From contig JAAWQC010000003.1 in assembly GCA_022800315.1 (NCBI GenBank), positions 1 to 64,000 of the forward strand: DNA of 64,000 bases. Reading direction: 5' to 3'. Made by a program: the position numbers and the translations under genes. The DNA is from Clostridiales bacterium. Its GTDB lineage: Bacteria > Bacillota > Clostridia > Oscillospirales > Acutalibacteraceae. The notes below the pieces were generated by a model. That model made no database searches and was not told the DNA's origin. It was given only the letters and a program-made list of their open reading frames with translations. Below are positions 11,878 through 26,561 of this stretch, one piece after another (positions within the stretch are counted from its first letter, which is position 1; every line of letters starts with the position of its first letter).

Positions 11878-13515
<1,638 letters not shown>

Positions 13516-16664: not shown

Positions 16665-17209
16665 AACCGTACTGCTTTTGGGTATAGATTAGACTTCAAA
16701 CTATCCGTTTGCAGGGTTGTTTTCAGTGGGATTGGAATTCCCATCGCGCATGGAAACCGCCCTGGCGTGAGACGGGGCTCAGTCTCACACCCGGGCGGTC
16801 ATACGCAACGATAGAAGTCCGTTTTCGGGGGTTCAGGTGAAATGGGCCCCCGGTTTCGCGCCAACAGAGGCTCCTTCTGTCAGGAGGGAGGCTCAATTTG
16901 TCCACGCCTGCCCCCGCAAACTCCGTCCCGCCTCCTGCTGTTTCGGAAGCTGTCACAGTTTATGCCGCTTTATTCGCTGGGTTTGAGAAAAGGCCCATTT
17001 CATACGGGCCTGTGCATCTGCCTATGAAACAATTTGCAGCCTCTTGACGGCTGATTCAGCTATACAGGCAATAAAAAATACCGTCTGTTCTTCCCCATTT
17101 ACAACCATTCCACACCCTTCGCCCGGAGGTGTGATATACTGTATAGGTAAAGTGCCGCGGGACGGAATTTCGCCGCCGCGGAATCTACTGCTAAAGGATG
17201 GTGTCTCTC
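16665..17209. other. Intergenic DNA returning to high GC
   Basis: No supported gene. It marks the right boundary of the AT-rich patch. It contains a long inverted repeat at 16756-16799 and a TATACT box (17135-17140) without a good -35 ahead of the flavin reductase-like gene. Confidence 0.4.
16756..16799. repeat. Inverted repeat (18-bp arms)
   Basis: Arms ACCGCCC-TGGCGTGAGAC and GTCTCACACCC-GGGCGGT enclose eight bases, with one mismatch region near the middle. There is no T run, so it is not an obvious terminator. Confidence 0.6.
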
Positions 17210-17722
17210 ATGAGCAAGTTTATCGAAATATCCCCGCTGGAGGTGGAGGGCAACGTTTTCCGCCGCATCGGGAAGGAATGGATGCTGGTCACCGCCGGCA
17301 GCCGCGGCCGCTTCAATACCATGACTGCCAGCTGGGGCGGTATGGGCGTGCTGTGGAACGCGGAAGTCAGCTTCATCTTCATCCGCCCCGAGCGCTATAC
17401 TTATGAATTTCTGGAACGGGAAACTACCTATTCCCTCTCCTTCCTGGGTGACGGGAACCGGCGGCCCCTCCAGGTCTGCGGCTCCACGTCGGGCCGCGAC
17501 ACCGATAAGGTGGCCGCCGCCGGGCTGACCCCGGTCTTCGACGCCGCTGCCCCCTACTTCGAGGAGGCGGAACTGTCCCTCATCTGCCGCAAGCTCTACT
17601 TCCAGGATCTGGACCCCGCCAACTTCCTCGATCCCGCTATCGCCGCCAACTATCAGGAAGCTGGCCTCCACCGCCTGTACGTGGGCGAAATTCAAAAGGT
17701 ACTCAAACGGGTTGAGCGCTGA
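17210..17722 (+). CDS. Flavin reductase-like FMN-binding protein
   Basis: A 170-residue protein of the flavin-reductase-like (split-barrel, FMN-binding) family. The stretch MLVTAGSRGRFNTMTASWGGMGVLW (given as overlapping pieces MLVTAGSRGRFNTM and TMTASWGGMGVLW) is the typical FMN-binding N-terminal motif, followed by FIRPERYTYEFLE and SLSFLG. Members transfer electrons between NAD(P)H, flavin and unknown acceptors; this one probably acts in the cytoplasm with an unidentified partner. I use the ATG at 17210 (MSKFIEISPLEV); the upstream ATG at 17198 touches the AAAGG site. A strong terminator follows. Confidence 0.88.
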   Translation: MSKFIEISPLEVEGNVFRRIGKEWMLVTAGSRGRFNTMTASWGGMGVLWNAEVSFIFIRPERYTYEFLERETTYSLSFLGDGNRRPLQVCGSTSGRDTDKVAAAGLTPVFDAAAPYFEEAELSLICRKLYFQDLDPANFLDPAIAANYQEAGLHRLYVGEIQKVLKRVER

Positions 17723-17740: not shown

Positions 17741-17777
17741 AAAAGGCCGCCGCGGAAAACCGCGGCGGCCTTTTTTA
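17741..17777. terminator. Bidirectional terminator between convergent genes
   Basis: A perfect 15-bp stem (AAAAGGCCGCCGCGG arm) with an AAAA loop and T/A runs on both sides. It serves the flavin reductase-like gene (+) and the sigma factor gene (-), whose stop overlaps it. Confidence 0.9.
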
Positions 17778-19064
17778 TATTTCTTTTGCCCCGTTCTGCG
17801 GCATCAGGTAACCGGTCCCTTCCACCGTATTACCCACCGTATCGGTAAAATGGAAGGTATACTGCCCCTCCGGCAGGCGAAAGGCGTATTCTCCCCGTTC
17901 CTCATCCTTCGATTCCGGCCCGTATTTCCTGCCGCCCACGTCGGTGCAGCTGACTTCGGCCACCCCCGTGGCGTCCTCCACCACCAGGATGGAAAGCCCG
18001 TCCCGGTAACGGGTATCGCTCAGTTCGGGAGGATCGGTATCAATGCAGGACACCTCCAGCGACCGGCTGGAGGTATGGCCGGTGTTCCCCTCCACCGTCA
18101 CCATATAGGTGCCGTTGTGGGGCAGGCTGCCCTCGTATCCCCCGCCCTGCGCCGGATACAGGGGATACACGTCCTCCCCGCAGGAGGCGTAAACGTCGGC
18201 GACCGGCAGCATCCCGCTCACCGATACCGCGATGGGCAGCGGGGAATTTCGCGGGCTTTGGCATTCGGCGGACAATTCGGCGATATCCACCGACGCGGTA
18301 AAGGAGACCCCTACCACCGCCGCCGCCGTCACCGCGGAGGCGGAGACGAAAAGCTTTTCCACCAGTTTTCGGGACGCTTTTGCTGCGGTGCGGACCGGTG
18401 AGCCCACCGCCGGTGCCGCCGACAAGCCGGGAGCGGCCTGTCCCGCCCCCTGAAAGACCGGGCCCAGTACCGTCCCCAGCACGGCGGGCGTCAGCGCCAC
18501 ACCCGGCAGGTAGGTCTTGAGATGGATCTGCATCCGGTTGAGCGCGCTGCGGAGCAGGCGCTTGACCGTGCTTTCCGACATATACATCATCTGAGCGATG
18601 TCCCGTACCTTCCGGTTCTGATAATACCGCAGCATGACCGCCGTGTATTCGTCGTTGGTCAGATGATCCATCGCCTCCCGCAGCTCCCGTTGCATCTCGC
18701 GGTTCTCCATCCCCGCATAGGGCGCGTTGGAGGGTTTGTCGTCCTTCCACTCGGTCACCTCTTTGGGTTCAGCCGGCACCTCCCGCGCGCATTTACGCAC
18801 ATGGTTCAGACAGGTATAACGGGTCACACTGTCCAGATAGGCGATGGCTGCTACCGGATTGTCCAGCTGCTTTGCCTTCTGCCAGAAGGTCAGGTATACC
18901 TGCTGCAAAAGATCGTCGGCGTCGCTGGGGTTGTCGATGAGCCGAAGGATACGGCAGTACTGTACCTGCGCGGTTTCCTGATAGAACTCCTGAAAAGCCG
19001 CTTCGTCTCCGTGCTGGAAGCGAACCACCAGTTTCCCCAACCGTTCGTACTGCCGCGTATTCAT
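17775..19064 (-). CDS. ECF-type sigma factor fused to a membrane anchor and extracytoplasmic domain
   Basis: A 429-residue protein. Residues about 15-95 form sigma-70 region 2 (FYQETAQVQYCRILRLIDNP, ADDLLQQVYLTFW) and about 130-182 region 4 with the helix-turn-helix KVRDIAQMMYMSESTVKRLL. After an Ala/Gly/Pro-rich linker, a membrane helix lies at about 239-257 (FVSASAVTAAAVVGVSF). The last 170 residues have an exported-protein look: two Cys, Ig-like strands, NGTYMVTVEGNTGHTSS and GQYTFHFTDTVGNTVEG. It therefore seems to combine sigma factor and surface sensor in one chain; classical ECF systems use a separate anti-sigma. The start at 19064 has GGGGGAG at good distance. It is divergent from the HD-GYP/SipW/matrix genes, which it may regulate (inference). 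Confidence 0.85.
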   Translation of the reverse strand: MNTRQYERLGKLVVRFQHGDEAAFQEFYQETAQVQYCRILRLIDNPSDADDLLQQVYLTFWQKAKQLDNPVAAIAYLDSVTRYTCLNHVRKCAREVPAEPKEVTEWKDDKPSNAPYAGMENREMQRELREAMDHLTNDEYTAVMLRYYQNRKVRDIAQMMYMSESTVKRLLRSALNRMQIHLKTYLPGVALTPAVLGTVLGPVFQGAGQAAPGLSAAPAVGSPVRTAAKASRKLVEKLFVSASAVTAAAVVGVSFTASVDIAELSAECQSPRNSPLPIAVSVSGMLPVADVYASCGEDVYPLYPAQGGGYEGSLPHNGTYMVTVEGNTGHTSSRSLEVSCIDTDPPELSDTRYRDGLSILVVEDATGVAEVSCTDVGGRKYGPESKDEERGEYAFRLPEGQYTFHFTDTVGNTVEGTGYLMPQNGAKEI

Positions 19065-19391
19065 TCCAACTCCCCCCATCGGCACTACCCTGCCAGAATA
19101 TTTCTAAAAACCAGTATATACGATAAGAGAGGCTATCTACAACTGGTTAATTCTGGGGAATAAACCTCTTCCCACTGTATTTTTGGTGTTATATCTAAAA
19201 TATTAACATAATATCTTGGATTAATAATGATAATGCACATTTTTTAATCGAAATCAAATTTTTTGTAAAAAAGTTGACCCATTTTGACACCTGCCTCTAC
19301 ATAGTTGTAGCGGCAGGTCAAACAGGCCCCATCCCCCGCGTCACGATCCGAGTCCCTGGTCACGGCGGCGGGCAAATGCGCAAAAAAGAAG
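19065..19391. other. AT-rich divergent regulatory region
   Basis: About 330 bases between the sigma factor gene and the matrix gene block. It is strongly AT-rich in the middle (19140-19270), with a TTGACC/TTGACA pair near 19274-19295 and a CCTGCC/GGCAGG hairpin at about 19292-19318. No confident SigA promoter could be fixed; if the divergent ECF factor drives the block, its promoter should lie here. Confidence 0.5.
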
Positions 19392-20069
19392 GTGTTGCCT
19401 TTGGAACCCGCCCAGCCTTTGCTGACCGATCCCGTAAACCCCGACGATATCCTGTCCGCCCTGCCGGGGGACATCCGCCTTCACTGCGCACGGGTTGCCG
19501 CCTACGCGGAGATACTGGCCCTCCGCCTGATGGAAGAGGGGGGCATCCGTTCCAGCTGGTTTCCCATCTTCCGCCGGGCGGTGCGGTACCACGACCTGGG
19601 CAAGATGGTCATCCCCCGCACCATACTGCTCAAGCCCGGCCCCCTCACCGAGGGAGAATGGGATATCATCCGCCGTCATCCCTCCATGGGCGCCCGTATG
19701 CTGGAGGACTGCGCGGACGAGGATAACCCCAAGGCTCTGCCCGCCCCGATATGCCGCATGGCCGTCGTCATCGCGGAGGGGCATCACGAGCGCTGGGACG
19801 GCGGCGGCTATCCCCGCGGCTGGATGGGGGAAGAAATCCCGCTGGCCGCCCGCATCTGCACCGTGGCGGACGCCTACGATGCCATGACCACCGAACGCTG
19901 CTACAGCCCGGCACTTAGCCACCGCGGCGCCTGCCGGGAAATCTGGCGGGAGTCGGGCGCCCAGTTCGATCCGCGGCTGGCGGAATTGTTCCGGGACTGC
20001 GAAACACTGTTTCAGCTGCAAAGCTTTCAGAGAGGAGGGGACGGCGGTTGGATGCCGAACGAATTTTAG
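19392..20069 (+). CDS. HD-GYP-like phosphohydrolase
   Basis: A protein of about 225 residues with an HD-GYP-type domain. Metal ligands are seen in RRAVRYHDLGKMVIP (H67-D68), the PLTEGEWDIIRRHP segment, HHERWDGGGYPRG (131-143, containing the GYP) and VADAYDAMTTERCY (D160). Complete HD-GYP proteins hydrolyse cyclic di-GMP or related dinucleotides; this one keeps the metal motifs and has no attached receiver or sensor domain. Start is uncertain: GTG at 19392, or TTG at 19401 which has AAGAAGG eight bases upstream. The last 22 bases overlap the signal peptidase gene, implying one transcript and coupling of nucleotide signalling with matrix export (inference). Confidence 0.85.
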   Translation: MLPLEPAQPLLTDPVNPDDILSALPGDIRLHCARVAAYAEILALRLMEEGGIRSSWFPIFRRAVRYHDLGKMVIPRTILLKPGPLTEGEWDIIRRHPSMGARMLEDCADEDNPKALPAPICRMAVVIAEGHHERWDGGGYPRGWMGEEIPLAARICTVADAYDAMTTERCYSPALSHRGACREIWRESGAQFDPRLAELFRDCETLFQLQSFQRGGDGGWMPNEF

Positions 20070-20788
20070 TGGATATCATGCTGGAGCGGATGATCACGCC
20101 CGCGGGGCCCCCGCCGTCTACAATGGCCGCTCCTATGGCGGCCGTGCCTGTCCCGGCGGCGCAGAGTCCGCCCGCCCTGCCGGCGAAAAAAGCCCCCTCC
20201 CACGCCCGTAAGGTGTGGGGTATGCTGGGCAGCGTGCTGTACTACCTGTTCCTGCTCGCCCTGCTGGCGGGGGTGCTCGTTTACTCCCGCGGGGGCGGCA
20301 ACTCCTCCTTCTTCGGCTACCGGTATTACAACGTGCTGACCTCCAGCATGCAGTCGGTGTACCCCCAGGGCTCGATGGTGTTCGTTCACCTGACCGACCC
20401 GAAGGAGATACAGGTGGGGGACGACATCACCTTCTACCGCGACCCCACCACCGTCATCACCCACCGGGTAATTGAGATCGTCCCCGACCTCGACGGGCAG
20501 GGGACCCCCGGCTTTCGCACCAAGGGGGTGGACAACGCCCTGGCCGACCGGGACGTGGTGCTCGGCGCCAACGTCGTGGGCACCGTGTCCCTCTCCATTC
20601 CCGCGCTGGGCTTTCTGTTCAGCTACCTGCGGGAGCGGTTCTGGCTGGCGGCGCTCCTGCTCATCCTGCTGACCGCCACCGTCCGGGTGTTCCGGAGCCT
20701 CCTGCGGCGGGAGAAAAAACACAGCAAATCCGGCGCCGGCGCGCCGTTCAAATACAGAGGAAAAACCCATGAGAAAGGATGTTATTGA
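20048..20788 (+). CDS. SipW-type signal peptidase I
   Basis: A 246-residue membrane peptidase of the S26 family, archaeal/ER (SipW) type. An unusual Pro/Ala-rich N-terminal tail of about 50 residues precedes the first membrane helix (about 59-79). The catalytic Ser is in VLTSSMQSVYP (S100) and, as in SipW, a His replaces the general-base Lys (TVITHRVI, H139). ADRDVV and GTVSLSIP match the last conserved boxes. A C-terminal helix (about 188-213) and basic tail follow. The TTG start at 20048 (MDAERI) has GGAGGGG seven bases upstream. SipW enzymes process TasA-like matrix proteins, and three genes with matching signals follow directly. Confidence 0.9.
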   Translation: MDAERILVDIMLERMITPAGPPPSTMAAPMAAVPVPAAQSPPALPAKKAPSHARKVWGMLGSVLYYLFLLALLAGVLVYSRGGGNSSFFGYRYYNVLTSSMQSVYPQGSMVFVHLTDPKEIQVGDDITFYRDPTTVITHRVIEIVPDLDGQGTPGFRTKGVDNALADRDVVLGANVVGTVSLSIPALGFLFSYLRERFWLAALLLILLTATVRVFRSLLRREKKHSKSGAGAPFKYRGKTHEKGCY

Positions 20789-20791
20789 CCT

Positions 20792-22039
20792 ATGGCAGAC
20801 ATGAAAAAAGCTGCGGCCGCTATCGGCGTTACCGGTCTGGCGGCAGCCCTGCTGATGACCGGTACCTTCGCGTGGAAGGACTTCGATCAGCACAAGACCG
20901 CCGAACTGGCCACCAACCTGACCTACAATGTCACCCTGGTGGAGGACTTCAAGGAGATCAACAACTGGGACACCGCCACCCCCGACGTGAATAAGGACGT
21001 GTGGGTGATGAACCAGGGCGACTCCCCCGTGTTCGTCCGCCTGAATTTCAAGGAGTACATGGAGATCGGTGAAAATACGGTGGAATACGTCAGCGACGCC
21101 GACGGCAACCCCATCCGCTTCGCCGTGGACAACAAGGGCGACTTCATCGAATCCAAAGCCGCCGACCCCGCCACCGACCCGAACGCCGTCGGGGTGTACT
21201 TCGGTGACACCGACACCACCAAGTACTTCATCGTCGCGCAGGGCGCCAACCAGGAAATCGACAAAACCCCCGACGACACCAACAAAAACGGCCAGATCGG
21301 CCGCTATATGAAAAAGCCGGGCGACGCCACCGGTGAAATCACGATCAAATACGCCTACGGCGCGGACAAGCGTGCCACCAGCGAGGCGGAGGAAGAAAAC
21401 TACGCCGTCCATAAATTCGGCCAGACCCCCGATCCCGACGCCGACCTCACCGACCCCGCCAACTGGGACGCGGCCCTGCATCAGTACATCAAGTGGACCA
21501 TGGGCGACGACGTGATGGAGATGGCCGACTGGGTCGCCGCCGGGTCGAAGCCGGGCAACTTCTGGGTGCTGGACACCGACGGCTGGGCCTACTGGGCCGC
21601 GCCGCTGGCCGGCGGGCAGAAGACCTCCCTCCTCATCGACAAGCTGACCCTGCTGGAGCAGCCCGCCGGTGACTTCTACTACGCCCTGCACGCCGCCATG
21701 GAGACGGTGACCGACGACGACATCGCCCTGTGGGACGACAAGACCGCCGACGCCGATACCCTGATCGCGGGCCTGCAGAACTTCAAGTTCGTCACCGGGA
21801 TGAAACCCGACCAGGCAGACGTCGCCCTGGCCGTGGGCGCTACCCAGACCCTGACCGCCACCGTCCTGCCCGCCGACGCGAGCAACCCGGCCCTGATTTG
21901 GAAAACCTCGGATGCCGCCGTCGTCACGGTGGATGAGAACGGCCTGATCACCGGCGTGGCCGCTGGCACTGCCACCATCACCGCCACCGCGGCGGACGGA
22001 AGCGGCAAGGCCGCAACCTACGCCGTCACCATAGCGTAA
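20792..22039 (+). CDS. TasA/CalY-like SipW-dependent matrix protein with Ig-like domain
   Basis: A 415-residue exported protein. The signal is MKKAAAAIGVTGLAAALLM followed by TGTFAWKDF, the SipW-type cleavage region. The body (about 30-330) has the camelysin/TasA pattern: LVEDFKEINNWDTATPDVNK, then MNQGDSPVFVRLNFKEY (the 'partly exported Asn-x-Gly' strand typical of the family), and FWVLDTDGWAYWAAPLAGG. The C-terminal 80 residues are a bacterial Ig-like (Big_2) domain (LTATVLPADASNPALIWKTS, VDENGLITGVAAGTATITAT). TasA-like proteins polymerise into extracellular fibres. It starts three bases after the peptidase stop and is a clear paralogue of the next gene. Confidence 0.9.
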   Translation: MADMKKAAAAIGVTGLAAALLMTGTFAWKDFDQHKTAELATNLTYNVTLVEDFKEINNWDTATPDVNKDVWVMNQGDSPVFVRLNFKEYMEIGENTVEYVSDADGNPIRFAVDNKGDFIESKAADPATDPNAVGVYFGDTDTTKYFIVAQGANQEIDKTPDDTNKNGQIGRYMKKPGDATGEITIKYAYGADKRATSEAEEENYAVHKFGQTPDPDADLTDPANWDAALHQYIKWTMGDDVMEMADWVAAGSKPGNFWVLDTDGWAYWAAPLAGGQKTSLLIDKLTLLEQPAGDFYYALHAAMETVTDDDIALWDDKTADADTLIAGLQNFKFVTGMKPDQADVALAVGATQTLTATVLPADASNPALIWKTSDAAVVTVDENGLITGVAAGTATITATAADGSGKAATYAVTIA

Positions 22040-22052
22040 GGAGGGAATCCTT

Positions 22053-24395
22053 TTGAAGAACAGAAATAAGGCCGCGACAGCGGCCACCGCGGTGGTGCTC
22101 TCAGCGGCCCTGCTGATGACCGGCACCTTCGCGTGGAACGACTTTAGTCAGAAGAAACTGAACGAGCTGGCCGGCGTCCTCAATTACGACGTCGCGCTGG
22201 TCGAGGACTTCGAGGAGACCAGCGACTGGTCCTTCGCCAACCCCGACGTGAACAAGGACGTGTCCGCCGCCAACAAGGGGGACAACGCCGCCTACGTCCG
22301 CATCAACCTGCGGGAATACCTGCAGGTGCGTCCCTTCACCTACACCAACGACAGCTATGTGAAGGACGCGGAGGGCAATCCCGTCCGCTTCGCGGTGGAC
22401 AAGAACGGCGAATACATACCGTCCACCGCCGCCGATCCCAAGGCCTTTGGGGTGGACTTCAGCGGGGACATCGGGGTGAAATACTTCGTCGTCGCTCAGG
22501 GCGCCGACCAGACCATCGCCACCATGGATAGCACCAACGAGAACGGCCAAATCGGTAAGTTCATGATTAACCCTGCCCTCCCCGACGGCGGCAAGGTGTA
22601 CGCCGACGACAAGGTGGAGCACTACGGCGCGGACAAGAAAGCCGCCACCACCGACGAGGAAATGGCTTACGCCATCCACAAGTTTACCGATACCCCCGAC
22701 CCGTGGCAGACGAAGGTCGAGGAATACGTGAACTGGAAGATGGGCCCCGCCGTGAAGACCATGGCCGAGTACAAGACCCTGTCCGCCGACGACAAAAAGG
22801 ACGCGAAGTTCTGGATCGTCGATACCGACGGCTGGTGCTATTGGTCCCAGCCACTGGCCAAGGACGAGCAGACCACCCTGCTGCTGGACGCGGCAACCCT
22901 GAAAAAGGCCCCCAAGGGCGATCTGTACTACGCCATCCACTCCACCATGCAGGCCGTGGATAAAGAGAATCTCGGCTGGTGGGCGGCGGACGCCACCGAG
23001 GATGCCAAGGACACCATCCTCCCCGACCTGAATGGGGGCACCGTTACACCAATCAGGCAGATAACTAACATCACATTGGACAAGAATACCCTTGAGCTGA
23101 CCGATGCTACTCCATCTAAACTGACGGCAACAGTCACCCCTGATGACGCGACAGAAAAAACGATTAAATGGAAATCCTCAGATCCAACTGTAGCTACTGT
23201 CGATCAGGAAGGTAACGTAACAGCCTGTGGTCAGGGTACCACCAGTATCACCGCAAACGCCATAGACGGCAGCAACGTCTCCGGCGAATGTGTCGTAACC
23301 GTTCCCAAATGGGTACCCGTTCAGGGTATAAAGGTAAATACATCGATCACCCTCCAAGGAACAAACTCCAATAATCTGACGGTGACCTTTACCCCCAATG
23401 ACGCTACCGACAAACGGTTGCTGTGGGAATCCAGCGACCCTTCAATTGTTACCGTTGATGATAACGGCAAGATTACCGGCGTATCGGCAGGTAAAACCAA
23501 CGTAACAGTAACCAGCGTTAACGGTGGTTTTACCTCGAGGTGTCAGGTAACGGTTAACGCCGTCAGTGCCACATCGATTACTTTTGCCAATAAATCCAGT
23601 GACGCGACTAACACAGGCGGCTATGTCCAGCAGGGATCGATTTATCAGTCTTTAAAAGCGGTTCCCCAGCCTGAAAACACAACCGATATTCCCATTTGGA
23701 GTTCTTCCGATTCCTCTATATTAACCGTTGACAGCAAAACAGGAGAAATAACCGCCGTGGGCTCCGTTGGACAAGAGGCTGTTATTACAGCAAAATCCGG
23801 AAATAAGAGCGCACAAATTAAGCTAAAAATTGTTAAGGAAACGATAGTAATGGGGACTGACCCGAATACAAAGGTACCTATTACTTGGATTGTTATGGAG
23901 AAAAAGGCAGGGGAAGCGCTGGTTATCGCCGAAAGCGTTGCTGTAAGCGACCGTGCTTTTGACACGTCGGGAAAAGACGGCAGCACCATATGGTGGGGAA
24001 ACTCCACACTGCGTACTTATTTAAATGACACGAGTTCAAAAGGCTTTATTGGCTCCGCTTTCACTGCGGAGGAAAAAAGCAGGATTTTAACAACGCCGGT
24101 AAAAACTTATGATAAATACATAGGGAGTGGTTCAGAAGTGATACAGACTACCAACGATAAGCTGTTCCTTCTATGCTCTTTCAAAACTACAGGGGTAAAC
24201 TATTGCACAGCGGATTATGCCGACTGGTCTTCCTATGCTCCAATCAACAGTATTTACTTTATGCGAAATGTTAATTTAAATAGTGGTAAGCAATCCGTTC
24301 TTACCCTGGGAAAGACAGGAGCTGTCAATTATGGTTTTGATTTTACAGCCACAGCTTCTATTCGTCCCGTCATGCGGATCACGATGCCTGATTAA
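22053..24395 (+). CDS. Large TasA/CalY-like protein with Ig-like repeats and DUF6273-like end
   Basis: A 780-residue exported protein. The N-terminal 330 residues are a paralogue of the upstream gene (signal ..ALLMTGTFAWNDFSQKK; LVEDFEETSDWSFANPDVNK; WIVDTDGWCYWSQPLAKDE). Then come about three Big_2 Ig-like domains (about 337-600, e.g. WKSSDPTVATVDQEGNVTAC and WESSDPSIVTVDDNGKITGV) and a C-terminal DUF6273-like domain (about 605-780: TIWWGNSTLRTYLND, ... TASIRPVMRI). It uses a TTG start with AAGGAGGG seven bases upstream. Odd: codon use shifts abruptly near nucleotide 23040 from strongly GC-ending to AT-rich, exactly where the repeats begin, as if the C-terminal part was acquired. Probably a surface/matrix protein with a cell- or ligand-binding tail. 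Confidence 0.88.
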   Translation: MKNRNKAATAATAVVLSAALLMTGTFAWNDFSQKKLNELAGVLNYDVALVEDFEETSDWSFANPDVNKDVSAANKGDNAAYVRINLREYLQVRPFTYTNDSYVKDAEGNPVRFAVDKNGEYIPSTAADPKAFGVDFSGDIGVKYFVVAQGADQTIATMDSTNENGQIGKFMINPALPDGGKVYADDKVEHYGADKKAATTDEEMAYAIHKFTDTPDPWQTKVEEYVNWKMGPAVKTMAEYKTLSADDKKDAKFWIVDTDGWCYWSQPLAKDEQTTLLLDAATLKKAPKGDLYYAIHSTMQAVDKENLGWWAADATEDAKDTILPDLNGGTVTPIRQITNITLDKNTLELTDATPSKLTATVTPDDATEKTIKWKSSDPTVATVDQEGNVTACGQGTTSITANAIDGSNVSGECVVTVPKWVPVQGIKVNTSITLQGTNSNNLTVTFTPNDATDKRLLWESSDPSIVTVDDNGKITGVSAGKTNVTVTSVNGGFTSRCQVTVNAVSATSITFANKSSDATNTGGYVQQGSIYQSLKAVPQPENTTDIPIWSSSDSSILTVDSKTGEITAVGSVGQEAVITAKSGNKSAQIKLKIVKETIVMGTDPNTKVPITWIVMEKKAGEALVIAESVAVSDRAFDTSGKDGSTIWWGNSTLRTYLNDTSSKGFIGSAFTAEEKSRILTTPVKTYDKYIGSGSEVIQTTNDKLFLLCSFKTTGVNYCTADYADWSSYAPINSIYFMRNVNLNSGKQSVLTLGKTGAVNYGFDFTATASIRPVMRITMPD

Positions 24396-24437: not shown

Positions 24438-24605
24438 AGGCGGGCGGGACAAGCCGTATCCCCGGCGTGTGAACGCCGGTTTATCATGCCGCTTGCTCCC
24501 CTTTACGGCCCCCGCTCCGCTCGCCTGTCAAGTCTATCCGGCGCGTTCCGCGATTCCGGCGTATTTCCCAAATACGGCGCCACCATCCGAAAGGAGACCG
24601 CTCCC

Positions 24606-26561
24606 ATGATGAAAAAAGTGTCCAGCGCCCTGCTGGCGCTCCTCCTCCTGCTGTCCCTGACCCTCACCGGCACCTTCGCCTGGTCCGATTTTACCCAGCG
24701 CAAGACGAACGAGATGGGCGGTACCATCGACGCCTATAACGTCCAGCTGGTCAAGCGGGGCATGGACACCGCCACCCCGCTGGCCAACACCTACTTCGAC
24801 CTGTACAGCCGGAAGGACGGCAGGGAAGAAAAGCTGGACGGCGTGTACGTCACCGACCAGTTCGGCGCCATCGAGCTGGGCGGCCTGCCCGCCGGGGACT
24901 ACCTGTTCCGGGAGGTAAATCCCCCCTACGGCTACAATCTCGACCTGGACACCCGCAACCACCCCTTCACCTTGAGCGAGGACACGGTGGACGAGCACCA
25001 GTACGTCTACGTCACCGCGGTGAACAGCCGCCGCTACGGCGACCTCACGGTGCGGAAAACGGTGGTCAACGCCGACGGCTCCCCCCTCACCGACGAGCAG
25101 AAGGAACAGCTCTTCACCTTCACCATCGTGATCGAGGGCGACGGCGTTCAGGAGCTGGGGGACGGCGGCTTCGGCTGGTCGCTGGACGGGGTGGACCAGC
25201 CCGCCAACCTGCCGAACACCGCCACCATCCAGCTGAAACACGGGCAGCAGGCGGTGATCAGGCACATCCCCGCCGGGGCCCACTACACCGTCACCGAGAC
25301 CCCGGCGGCGGACACCATCGTCACCGGCGAAAACCACAGCGGTACCCTGCTCGAGGGCGGGGCGCAGGCCTCCTTTATCAACACCTACGGCAGGGAACCG
25401 GAGCCTGGCACCCTCACCGTGAAGAAACAGGTCACCGGCGAAGGCGCCGACCCGACCCGCAAGTTCGATATGACCGTCACCATCGACGGCGTCCCGCACC
25501 GCATCGCGCTGGCAGGCGGGGAAGTAGCCGTCTTTGCCGATCTTCCCGCCGGCGCGTACTATGAGGTAAAAGAGGACGACCTCTACGGCACCGGCTACAT
25601 ACAGGGGGGGCTGACCGACGGCTTCGGCACCATCGACGGCGACAAGACCGCCCTGGTCACCAACACCTTTGTGGGCACCGTCATGACCGAGATACGGGGC
25701 CAGAAAACCTGGGAGCACGGTGACAACCCCGAGGCCAGCCGCCCCGCCCACATCGTCGTCCAGCTGAAATGCGGCGAGGCCGTCATGGCGCAGAAGACGG
25801 TGACCGCCGCCGACGGCTGGTCCTACGCCTTCAACGCACCCAAGTACGATGCGGAGGCAAACGAGGTGGCGTACAGCATCGCGGAACTGCCGGTGCCGAA
25901 CTACGCCGCCACCGTGGACGGCTATAACCTGCACAACACCTACGTGCCCCCGGCGGTCACTACCACCTCCGGCACCGGCTCCGCCGCCTCTTCGACCGAT
26001 TCCACAACGACCACCACGAATACTGCGACAAGTTCCACCGTCTCCACAACGACTGATCCTAACGAGACAACAACCAGCGATCCTTCGACGAACACTTCTG
26101 GTTCGTCGGCGACCACTACCGGTTCCTCGGCCACAACATCCACTGATCCCTCGACGAACACTGCCGGTTCCTCGGCCACAACATCCACTGATCCCTCGAC
26201 GAACACTGCCGGTTCCTCGGCCACAACATCCACTGATCCTGACGGGACGACGACCACCAACGATTTCAACTTTACCATCACCCTGCATCCCACCCGGCCC
26301 ACCGACCCTGATTCCTTCCCGGTGGGGGGCGGCACGGCGGGCGGGCCGGATGGAAGCGGTAACGACGGCGGCGCAAACGGGCAGAACCCGCCGAAGACGG
26401 GCGACACCTTCTTCGACCCCGCCTGTCTCATCCACCCGGCGCTTCTCATCCTGATCATTCTGCTGGGCGGCTACACCGTCATCCGCCTGGTTATCAACCG
26501 ACGGAAGGCGGAGGACATTCAGCTCCAGACCATCCCAACAGAGGAGGATAACGAACAATGA
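24606..26561 (+). CDS. SpaA/Cna-B-type pilin-like protein with sorting signal
   Basis: A 651-residue surface protein. The signal ends in TLTGTFAWSDFTQ, the same SipW-style motif as the two matrix proteins, followed by a SpaA/prealbumin-type Cna-B domain (about 35-130: YFDLYSRKDGREEKLDGVYV, AGDYLFREVNPPYGYNLD). Two FctA-like repeat domains (about 140-360; TFTIVIEGDGV, KFDMTVTIDGV) and another Cna-B domain (about 362-450: RGQKTWEHGDNPEA) follow. A Ser/Thr-rich stalk (about 450-560) leads to the sortase signal NPPKTG (594-599), a membrane helix and a basic tail. The start is ATG 24606 after AAAGGAGA. Sortase-polymerised, isopeptide-crosslinked pili or a stalked anchor are likely; no sortase is in the window. 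The combination of SipW-type signal with a sorting signal is unusual. Confidence 0.9.
   Translation: MMKKVSSALLALLLLLSLTLTGTFAWSDFTQRKTNEMGGTIDAYNVQLVKRGMDTATPLANTYFDLYSRKDGREEKLDGVYVTDQFGAIELGGLPAGDYLFREVNPPYGYNLDLDTRNHPFTLSEDTVDEHQYVYVTAVNSRRYGDLTVRKTVVNADGSPLTDEQKEQLFTFTIVIEGDGVQELGDGGFGWSLDGVDQPANLPNTATIQLKHGQQAVIRHIPAGAHYTVTETPAADTIVTGENHSGTLLEGGAQASFINTYGREPEPGTLTVKKQVTGEGADPTRKFDMTVTIDGVPHRIALAGGEVAVFADLPAGAYYEVKEDDLYGTGYIQGGLTDGFGTIDGDKTALVTNTFVGTVMTEIRGQKTWEHGDNPEASRPAHIVVQLKCGEAVMAQKTVTAADGWSYAFNAPKYDAEANEVAYSIAELPVPNYAATVDGYNLHNTYVPPAVTTTSGTGSAASSTDSTTTTTNTATSSTVSTTTDPNETTTSDPSTNTSGSSATTTGSSATTSTDPSTNTAGSSATTSTDPSTNTAGSSATTSTDPDGTTTTNDFNFTITLHPTRPTDPDSFPVGGGTAGGPDGSGNDGGANGQNPPKTGDTFFDPACLIHPALLILIILLGGYTVIRLVINRRKAEDIQLQTIPTEEDNEQ
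26121..26240 (+). repeat. 45-bp tandem repeat in the pilin stalk
   Basis: The unit begins GGTTCCTCGGCCACAACATC and recurs with a period of exactly 45 bases at 26121, 26166 and 26211 (the last partial). Degenerate copies lie just upstream. It encodes a 15-residue Ser/Thr-rich unit (GSSATTSTDPSTNTA). Confidence 0.92.

Follow-up and report, generated by a model that had tools for sequence, protein, structure and literature searches.

A predicted sigma factor–membrane helix–Ig fusion protein encoded beside a SipW/BsaA matrix block in a clostridial genome

The 64,000-nucleotide stretch of DNA analysed here (positions 1 to 64,000 of contig JAAWQC010000003.1, assembly GCA_022800315.1, from a gut-type Clostridiales bacterium; hereafter the window) carries a gene for a 429-residue protein in which an extracytoplasmic function (ECF) sigma factor is followed by a linker, one predicted membrane helix and two predicted immunoglobulin (Ig)-like domains. 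On the basis of its domain order, intact frame, predicted fold, homologues and gene neighbourhood, we propose, with a probability of roughly 0.5, that this fusion protein is a one-protein signal transducer that spans the membrane and serves surface-protein genes. Sigma factors receive most outside signals via separate anti-sigma proteins, and a sigma factor endowed with its own outer domain would cut this path to a single protein. ECF-membrane fusions as such are already known (ECF48, ECF52, ECF53 and ECF243). A limited search of openly licensed papers retrieved no description of domain-shuffled outer parts, of a link to secreted-protein genes or of the sigma-Ig type.

Architecture and predicted topology

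The ATG start of the gene is preceded by a good ribosome-binding site and its frame is intact. The gene and its parts are the following:

17775..19064, minus strand: coding sequence of the sigma-membrane-Ig fusion protein, 429 residues (open frame)
18783..18947, minus strand: sigma region 2, residues 40-94 (PF04542, Sigma70_r2, E 4.4e-8, over cut-off)
18531..18689, minus strand: sigma region 4, residues 126-178 (PF08281, Sigma70_r4_2, E 3.3e-9, over cut-off)
18288..18353, minus strand: predicted membrane helix, residues 238-259, with RTAAKASRKLVEK just before it (hydrophobicity and charge)
18051..18239, minus strand: predicted outer Ig-like domain 1, about residues 276-338 (single-sequence AlphaFold2, Foldseek)
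17805..17996, minus strand: predicted outer Ig-like domain 2, about residues 357-420 (single-sequence AlphaFold2, Foldseek)
17741..17774, no strand assigned: strong terminator-like hairpin at the gene end, between the fusion gene and the convergent gene 17198-17722

Sigma regions 2 and 4, already recognized in a preliminary description of this DNA, both gave Pfam matches over cut-off, and the Pfam scan of the protein returned no match for region 3; by its sequence, the protein is thus an ECF sigma factor. Its first 186 residues match ECF sigma factors in the PDB (SigK 4nqw, E 3.8e-11), and Foldseek aligned the sigma half with AlgU, SigK and SigW at E values of 4e-8 to 2e-6. That the fusion might be two genes joined by a frameshift or sequencing error can be excluded, because third-position guanine-cytosine content is even along the gene (0.76 in the sigma part, 0.77 in the linker and 0.76 in the outer part) and the same architecture occurs end to end in the plasmid proteins named below.

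The single membrane helix placed near residue 248, after a linker, by the preliminary description corresponds to one best hydrophobic segment at residues 238-256, alanine-rich and marginal in strength (Kyte-Doolittle 1.85); a second, weaker peak lies at residue 186. The net charge is +4 in the 20 residues before the helix and -2 in the 20 after it, from which the positive-inside rule predicts an N-in/C-out topology with the C-terminal part outside. The positive stretch is common to all three end-to-end homologues. The best indirect support for this topology comes from fused relatives, whose outer domains, located at the same place, are of types that are extracellular elsewhere. Together with the adhesin-type Ig likeness of the outer part, these domains favour the predicted arrangement in which the polymerase-binding half is tethered at the membrane. 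It is thus very probable that the sigma half lies inside and the Ig-like part outside.

The outer part comprises the 169 C-terminal residues, is acidic (pI, or isoelectric point, of 4.3) and was modelled by single-sequence AlphaFold2 as all-beta, with two beta-sandwiches (predicted local distance difference test score 72, predicted template modelling score 0.44), in line with the exported-looking domain of about 170 residues with strands noticed earlier. No Pfam family matched these last 169 residues up to an E value of 0.1. The best PDB matches found by Foldseek were Ig-like repeats of the SiiE adhesin (2yn5 and 2yn3, E 8e-5 to 6e-4). Since this fold is common, with VIA-align Z scores of 7 to 8.5 between the outer part and many Ig and fibronectin-like domains, it is uninformative on the ligand. 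At the sequence level, the outer part matches Ig repeats of large open reading frames (ORFs) in relatives (E 1e-6 to 0.009; 8 of 300 genomes, including its own). These giant-ORF repeats match it about as well as the outer parts of the plasmid homologues do, which places it in a widespread class of Ig repeats from bacterial surface proteins. It contains four cysteines (268, 295, 340 and 373) rather than the two first reported; the other cysteines of the protein are at 37, 85 and 92. With four present and only C340, in a CID motif, kept in two plasmid homologues, the idea of redox sensing by a cysteine pair was dropped.

End-to-end homologues on Paraclostridium bifermentans plasmids

A tblastn search of the window protein against 72,556 plasmid records gave 74 records with a match; in four of these, all from P. 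bifermentans, the match spans 80% or more of the query. Two representatives, WGX77599.1 and WP_247014192.1, annotated merely as sigma-70 family sigma factors, align over residues 1 to 412 (BLASTP E 1e-31 and 2e-28). They share the succession of sigma part, linker, helix and two Ig-like domains from end to end; their helix lies at residue 248-249 and follows a positively charged stretch, and the CID motif located between the two outer domains is invariant. Outer parts compared alone still match (phmmer E 1.9e-7 and 1.3e-5), and a profile of the two plasmid outer parts gave the window protein 31.5 bits, as compared with 3.6 for the best of 1000 shuffles. Judged from these alignments, the homology is end to end, outer part included. 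The plasmid proteins differ in being plasmid-borne and only 22-24% identical to the window protein, and in their surroundings: their genes are followed by DUF5011 or sortase/BclA_C genes, whereas the window gene is divergent from a SipW block. A gene for a DUF5011 Ig surface protein lies 3' of the plasmid homologue, directly in locus L167 and with one gene between in L150, and genes for a class B sortase and a BclA_C-like protein lie 3' of it in L151 and L168. No ECF motif was common to the plasmid loci.

A wider family with interchangeable outer domains

A search of 300 genomes from the taxonomic family returned long ORFs whose match extends past the helix. The 44 ORFs with a sigma match that were taken from 40 regions almost all carry a helix, at about residue 230-315, followed by an outer part that often comes after a Thr-rich linker; the zinc motif HxxxCxxC was present in none of the 44 between residues 150 and 320. 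The addition of 40 further regions brought the set to 83 sigma-membrane-ectodomain proteins from clostridial relatives. The outer domain recognized by Pfam was LRR_5 (BspA-type leucine-rich repeat, LRR) in 19 of 41 proteins, the window protein being among the 41, and in 1 of 40, Big_2 in 3 of 40, and CAP, class-3 lipase, lipocalin and SH3_3 in one protein each. A core profile (alignment A2) found full-length, stop-free matches in at least 22 of 325 genomes of the order and at least 13 of 321 of the class, own genome included; these searches considered the best matches, at most seven candidates per genome, and the counts are lower bounds. Sequences cut by a contig end or with the helix elsewhere were left out of alignments A1 (L044, L071, L073 and L075) and A2 (L071, L073 and L075).

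Two side observations concern other relatives. At L053:6881-8845, two genes after a fused sigma gene start with nearly the same membrane segment as the sigma protein (MIFKTTMEKVAAAVLAVVVVGGG), and both match its ectodomain, so that they look like copies devoid of the sigma part. Another sigma class with a C-terminal extension of about 380 residues occurs in the same genus (G000:C58, that is L005:376-2007; L004:1432-3096; L007:394-2088).

Place of the window protein in the family

When left out of the core profile, the window protein scored 134.7 bits and matched up to model position 254 of 299, as compared with 172-316 bits for held-out members and 45-104 for eight soluble ECF sigma factors; one soluble ECF sigma factor reached 175 bits in a separate profile search. 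Its sigma half alone scored 126.2 bits. The linker and helix of the window protein contribute no more than the same letters in random order, the score being reached by 60 of 200 shuffles, whereas the same test on the plasmid proteins gave 3 of 200 and 0 of 200, indicating that the plasmid linkers carry family signal.

These scores bear on whether the window protein is a separate fusion, in which a sigma factor from outside the fused clade would have gained the same kind of anchor and Ig domains. The shuffle result favours such an origin, as do free trees, in which the window sigma domain fell outside the fused clade, on a long branch among soluble ECF sigma factors, while a free tree placed the plasmid proteins among the fused ones. 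(Before tree building, fused sequences more than 55% identical and other sequences more than 80% identical were thinned, and L132_1_S, the longest branch, was kept out of the second tree.) However, approximately unbiased (AU) tests did not reject the window protein within the fused clade (p 0.32 and p 0.483), and a tree that joins the window and plasmid proteins, missed by the first trees, exceeds the quick tree by 14.0 log units (p-AU 0.726). Given also the end-to-end alignment with the plasmid proteins, we consider a separate fusion improbable; the simplest reading of the sequences would be one divergent lineage with Ig ectodomains.

This sigma-Ig type appears rare and patchy, as neither of the two further genomes from the genus, one of which is 78% complete, has an orthologue of the fused gene, and no further full-length sigma-Ig match was found among the matches listed for 206 class and 197 order genomes. 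None was found in viral contigs, phages gave sigma-half matches only, and a search of genome contigs gave a single match, to the sigma half, at 25% identity.

The divergent matrix block and its possible control

As noted in the preliminary description, the fusion gene is divergent from a matrix block, the two being separated by a 327-bp region. On the other side lie the following features:

19318..19342, plus strand: candidate ECF-type promoter TCAAAC-N15-CGTC, facing the HD-GYP gene (single ECF-type match in the 327-bp divergent region)
19392..20069, plus strand: HD-GYP protein (HD_5; HHERWDGGGYP read in the sequence)
20048..20788, plus strand: SipW-type signal peptidase I (TIGR02228, 80.4 bits, cut-off 51.85)
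20792..22039, plus strand: BsaA-like SipW substrate with a Big_2 domain (TIGR04090, 50.7 bits, under the cut-off of 60; Big_2, 6e-18)
22053..24395, plus strand: second BsaA-like protein, with Big_2 repeats (TIGR04090, 41.5 bits, under the cut-off of 60)
24486..26561, plus strand: SpaA/Cna_B/DUF7601 surface protein (Pfam; signal motifs read in the sequence)

It had been suggested that the sigma gene and the block might share a promoter within 19065-19391. No convincing shared motif was found there: the only ECF-type match faces the matrix side, its TCAAAC/CGTC pattern was picked post hoc, after reading the region, and nothing like it precedes the sigma gene. When the intergenic region was shuffled 2000 times with dinucleotides kept, 48 of the shuffles also contained a match. 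A looser ECF-type pattern occurs 20 times in the whole window, as compared with 11.7 expected, so such promoter matches are cheap. An octamer, AGTTGTAG, found before both genes was rejected as a shared motif, being at chance level (about 0.8 such pairs expected by our own estimate), and Rfam gave no match over 10301 bases. The fusion protein may plausibly control the divergent block. Before the HD-GYP gene there is also an inverted repeat (19289-19318; 13-nt arms, 92% complementary, 4-nt loop) that ends where the candidate promoter starts and could be an operator.

Neighbourhoods were compared over the family as a whole. In the first batch, a secreted-protein gene came next on the same strand, within 200 bp, after 14 of 38 fused genes and 52 of 360 other genes. 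A second batch, retrieved once this idea had come up, gave 13 of 36 for fused and 36 of 415 for other genes (p 2e-5); over all loci, which are not fully independent, the counts were 29 of 76 and 88 of 772 (p 1.7e-8). Gene calls in these tests came from a longest-ORF caller, not a gene finder, and secretion was predicted. The P. bifermentans loci, with their DUF5011 or sortase and BclA_C-like genes, agree with this tendency. The matrix link itself is not general: SipW was found near just one of 79 other fused loci, where a SipW operon stands beside the fused gene (L062/L148, G214), and a SipW link as a family rule was accordingly rejected. At another locus (L072, G050), a BsaA-like gene lies about 4 kb from the fused gene. 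A crude pattern for SipW-type signals matched at 3 of the 79 loci, one of them resembling an ordinary signal, which by our reading leaves SipW-type substrates at 2 of 79. In the two other genomes of the genus (one 78% complete), which lack the fused gene, no BsaA match was found either, a joint absence that fits linkage.

Several features of the surroundings can be recorded on their own account. The product of 24486-26561 seems to join a SipW-type signal (TGTFAW), a PPKTGD sorting-type end and Cna_B/SpaA domains. The HD-GYP gene overlaps the SipW gene and the genome has 14 GGDEF matches over cut-off, so that the block may also answer to cyclic diguanylate. A second SipW/BsaA-type locus in the same genome (contig C62, L147:8307-13770) lacks a fused sigma gene; three of its frames (223, 203 and 193 residues) have counterparts of equal length at G083:C83, a locus from another genus, so that a recent transfer may have taken place. 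A collagen-like protein with long GAT/GPT repeats is encoded at 11959-13515 of the window, and a BclA_C-like protein near the P. bifermentans homologue in L151.

Discussion

To our knowledge, the clostridial decision to make a SipW/TasA-type matrix is little understood. In the mechanism that we propose, the single weak helix would keep the ECF sigma half at the cytoplasmic side of the membrane, while the two outside Ig-like domains would recognize a ligand, either extracellular or on the surface, or else a surface protein nearby. A signal altering the outer part would render the weak helix open to proteolysis in two steps, after which the sigma half, once freed, would join RNA polymerase and start surface-protein genes, most likely those of the divergent HD-GYP-SipW-BsaA-SpaA block. 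We regard this block as a possible target, at somewhat less than even odds.

Several observations weigh against the one-protein transducer. The helix is marginal and was not built in the AlphaFold2 model; the outer part matches none of the five neighbouring proteins tested; and the idea that the ectodomain copies its neighbour was abandoned as unconvincing, ectodomain-like neighbours at the same locus being found in 7 of 76 cases where 3.4 were expected. A full-length site-2 protease homologue exists in the genome (C18:30033-31058), a weak argument for cleavage because such homologues occur in all 14 control genomes. The scarcity of SipW at other fused loci and the lack of a promoter common to the sigma gene and the matrix block also count against our proposal, and they lend weight to an alternative in which the fusion protein drives genes elsewhere, or only itself, and lies beside the matrix block by chance. 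The C62 locus, with no fused gene, points in the same direction. The tendency of fused genes to precede secreted-protein genes, the divergent order with its 327-bp shared region and the two fusion-less members of the genus that are also devoid of BsaA matches speak against chance placement; such a placement is a real contender that we hold at a little under one in two.

How the signal would pass through the membrane is a separate matter. The sigma half might work while still attached, in the manner of ToxR and CadC, which are one-component regulators: an outside ligand would change dimerisation or exposure, and transcription would start without cleavage. No separate anti-sigma gene adjoins the fusion gene among the window ORFs. 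Because no zinc anti-sigma or other inhibitory domain is recognizable between sigma part and helix (including the 44 relatives searched for HxxxCxxC), membrane action without cleavage is a serious rival, and the Gly/Ala-rich helices could perhaps pack. Against it stands IutY (ECF243) of Pseudomonas putida, the only characterised fused case, which is cleaved and released by Prc and RseP (PMC8999054). For SCO4117 (ECF52) of Streptomyces coelicolor, proteolytic release has been proposed (PMC5826349). By analogy with these two proteins we favour two-step cleavage: release of the sigma half by proteolysis seems slightly the better bet, and action at the membrane rather unlikely.

Since LRR, Ig, CAP, lipase and lipocalin domains have been swapped freely on one conserved sigma-helix core, the fused family offers a series of domain swaps made by nature, through which signals could be paired with outputs, and its Paraclostridium versions are found in culturable organisms. 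It is tempting to generalize, although we think it doubtful that the whole would hold, that clostridia use a large receptor-sigma family with interchangeable adhesin-type domains outside, by which the cell reads its own surface or matrix and switches on adjacent surface-protein genes, the window member doing so for the SipW/BsaA matrix.

Known fused sigma factors offer partial parallels. ECF262, whose representative SFB89493.1 is from Ruminococcus albus, likewise comes from a clostridial gut-type genus and is entered in a table of PMC8999054 among the ECF groups that have an extension, with its mechanism given as unknown; it may already hold part of the clostridial family, an identity guessed from that table entry. 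The actinobacterial groups ECF48, ECF52 and ECF53 also have a helix and an outer domain after the sigma part, as predicted for the window protein, but their zinc-finger anti-sigma domain has no counterpart in it (no cysteine between residues 92 and 268 and no Pfam match there). IutY similarly unites a sigma factor and a membrane signal receiver in one chain (PMC8999054); it contains a fused anti-sigma factor domain, for which the window protein gave no Pfam match and none among the best 25 of 92 NCBIfam matches. SCO4117 (PMC5826349) resembles the window protein in that its ECF sigma factor is continued by a membrane helix and a binding domain outside, and differs from it in being actinobacterial and in carrying a zinc-finger domain and a carbohydrate-binding module.
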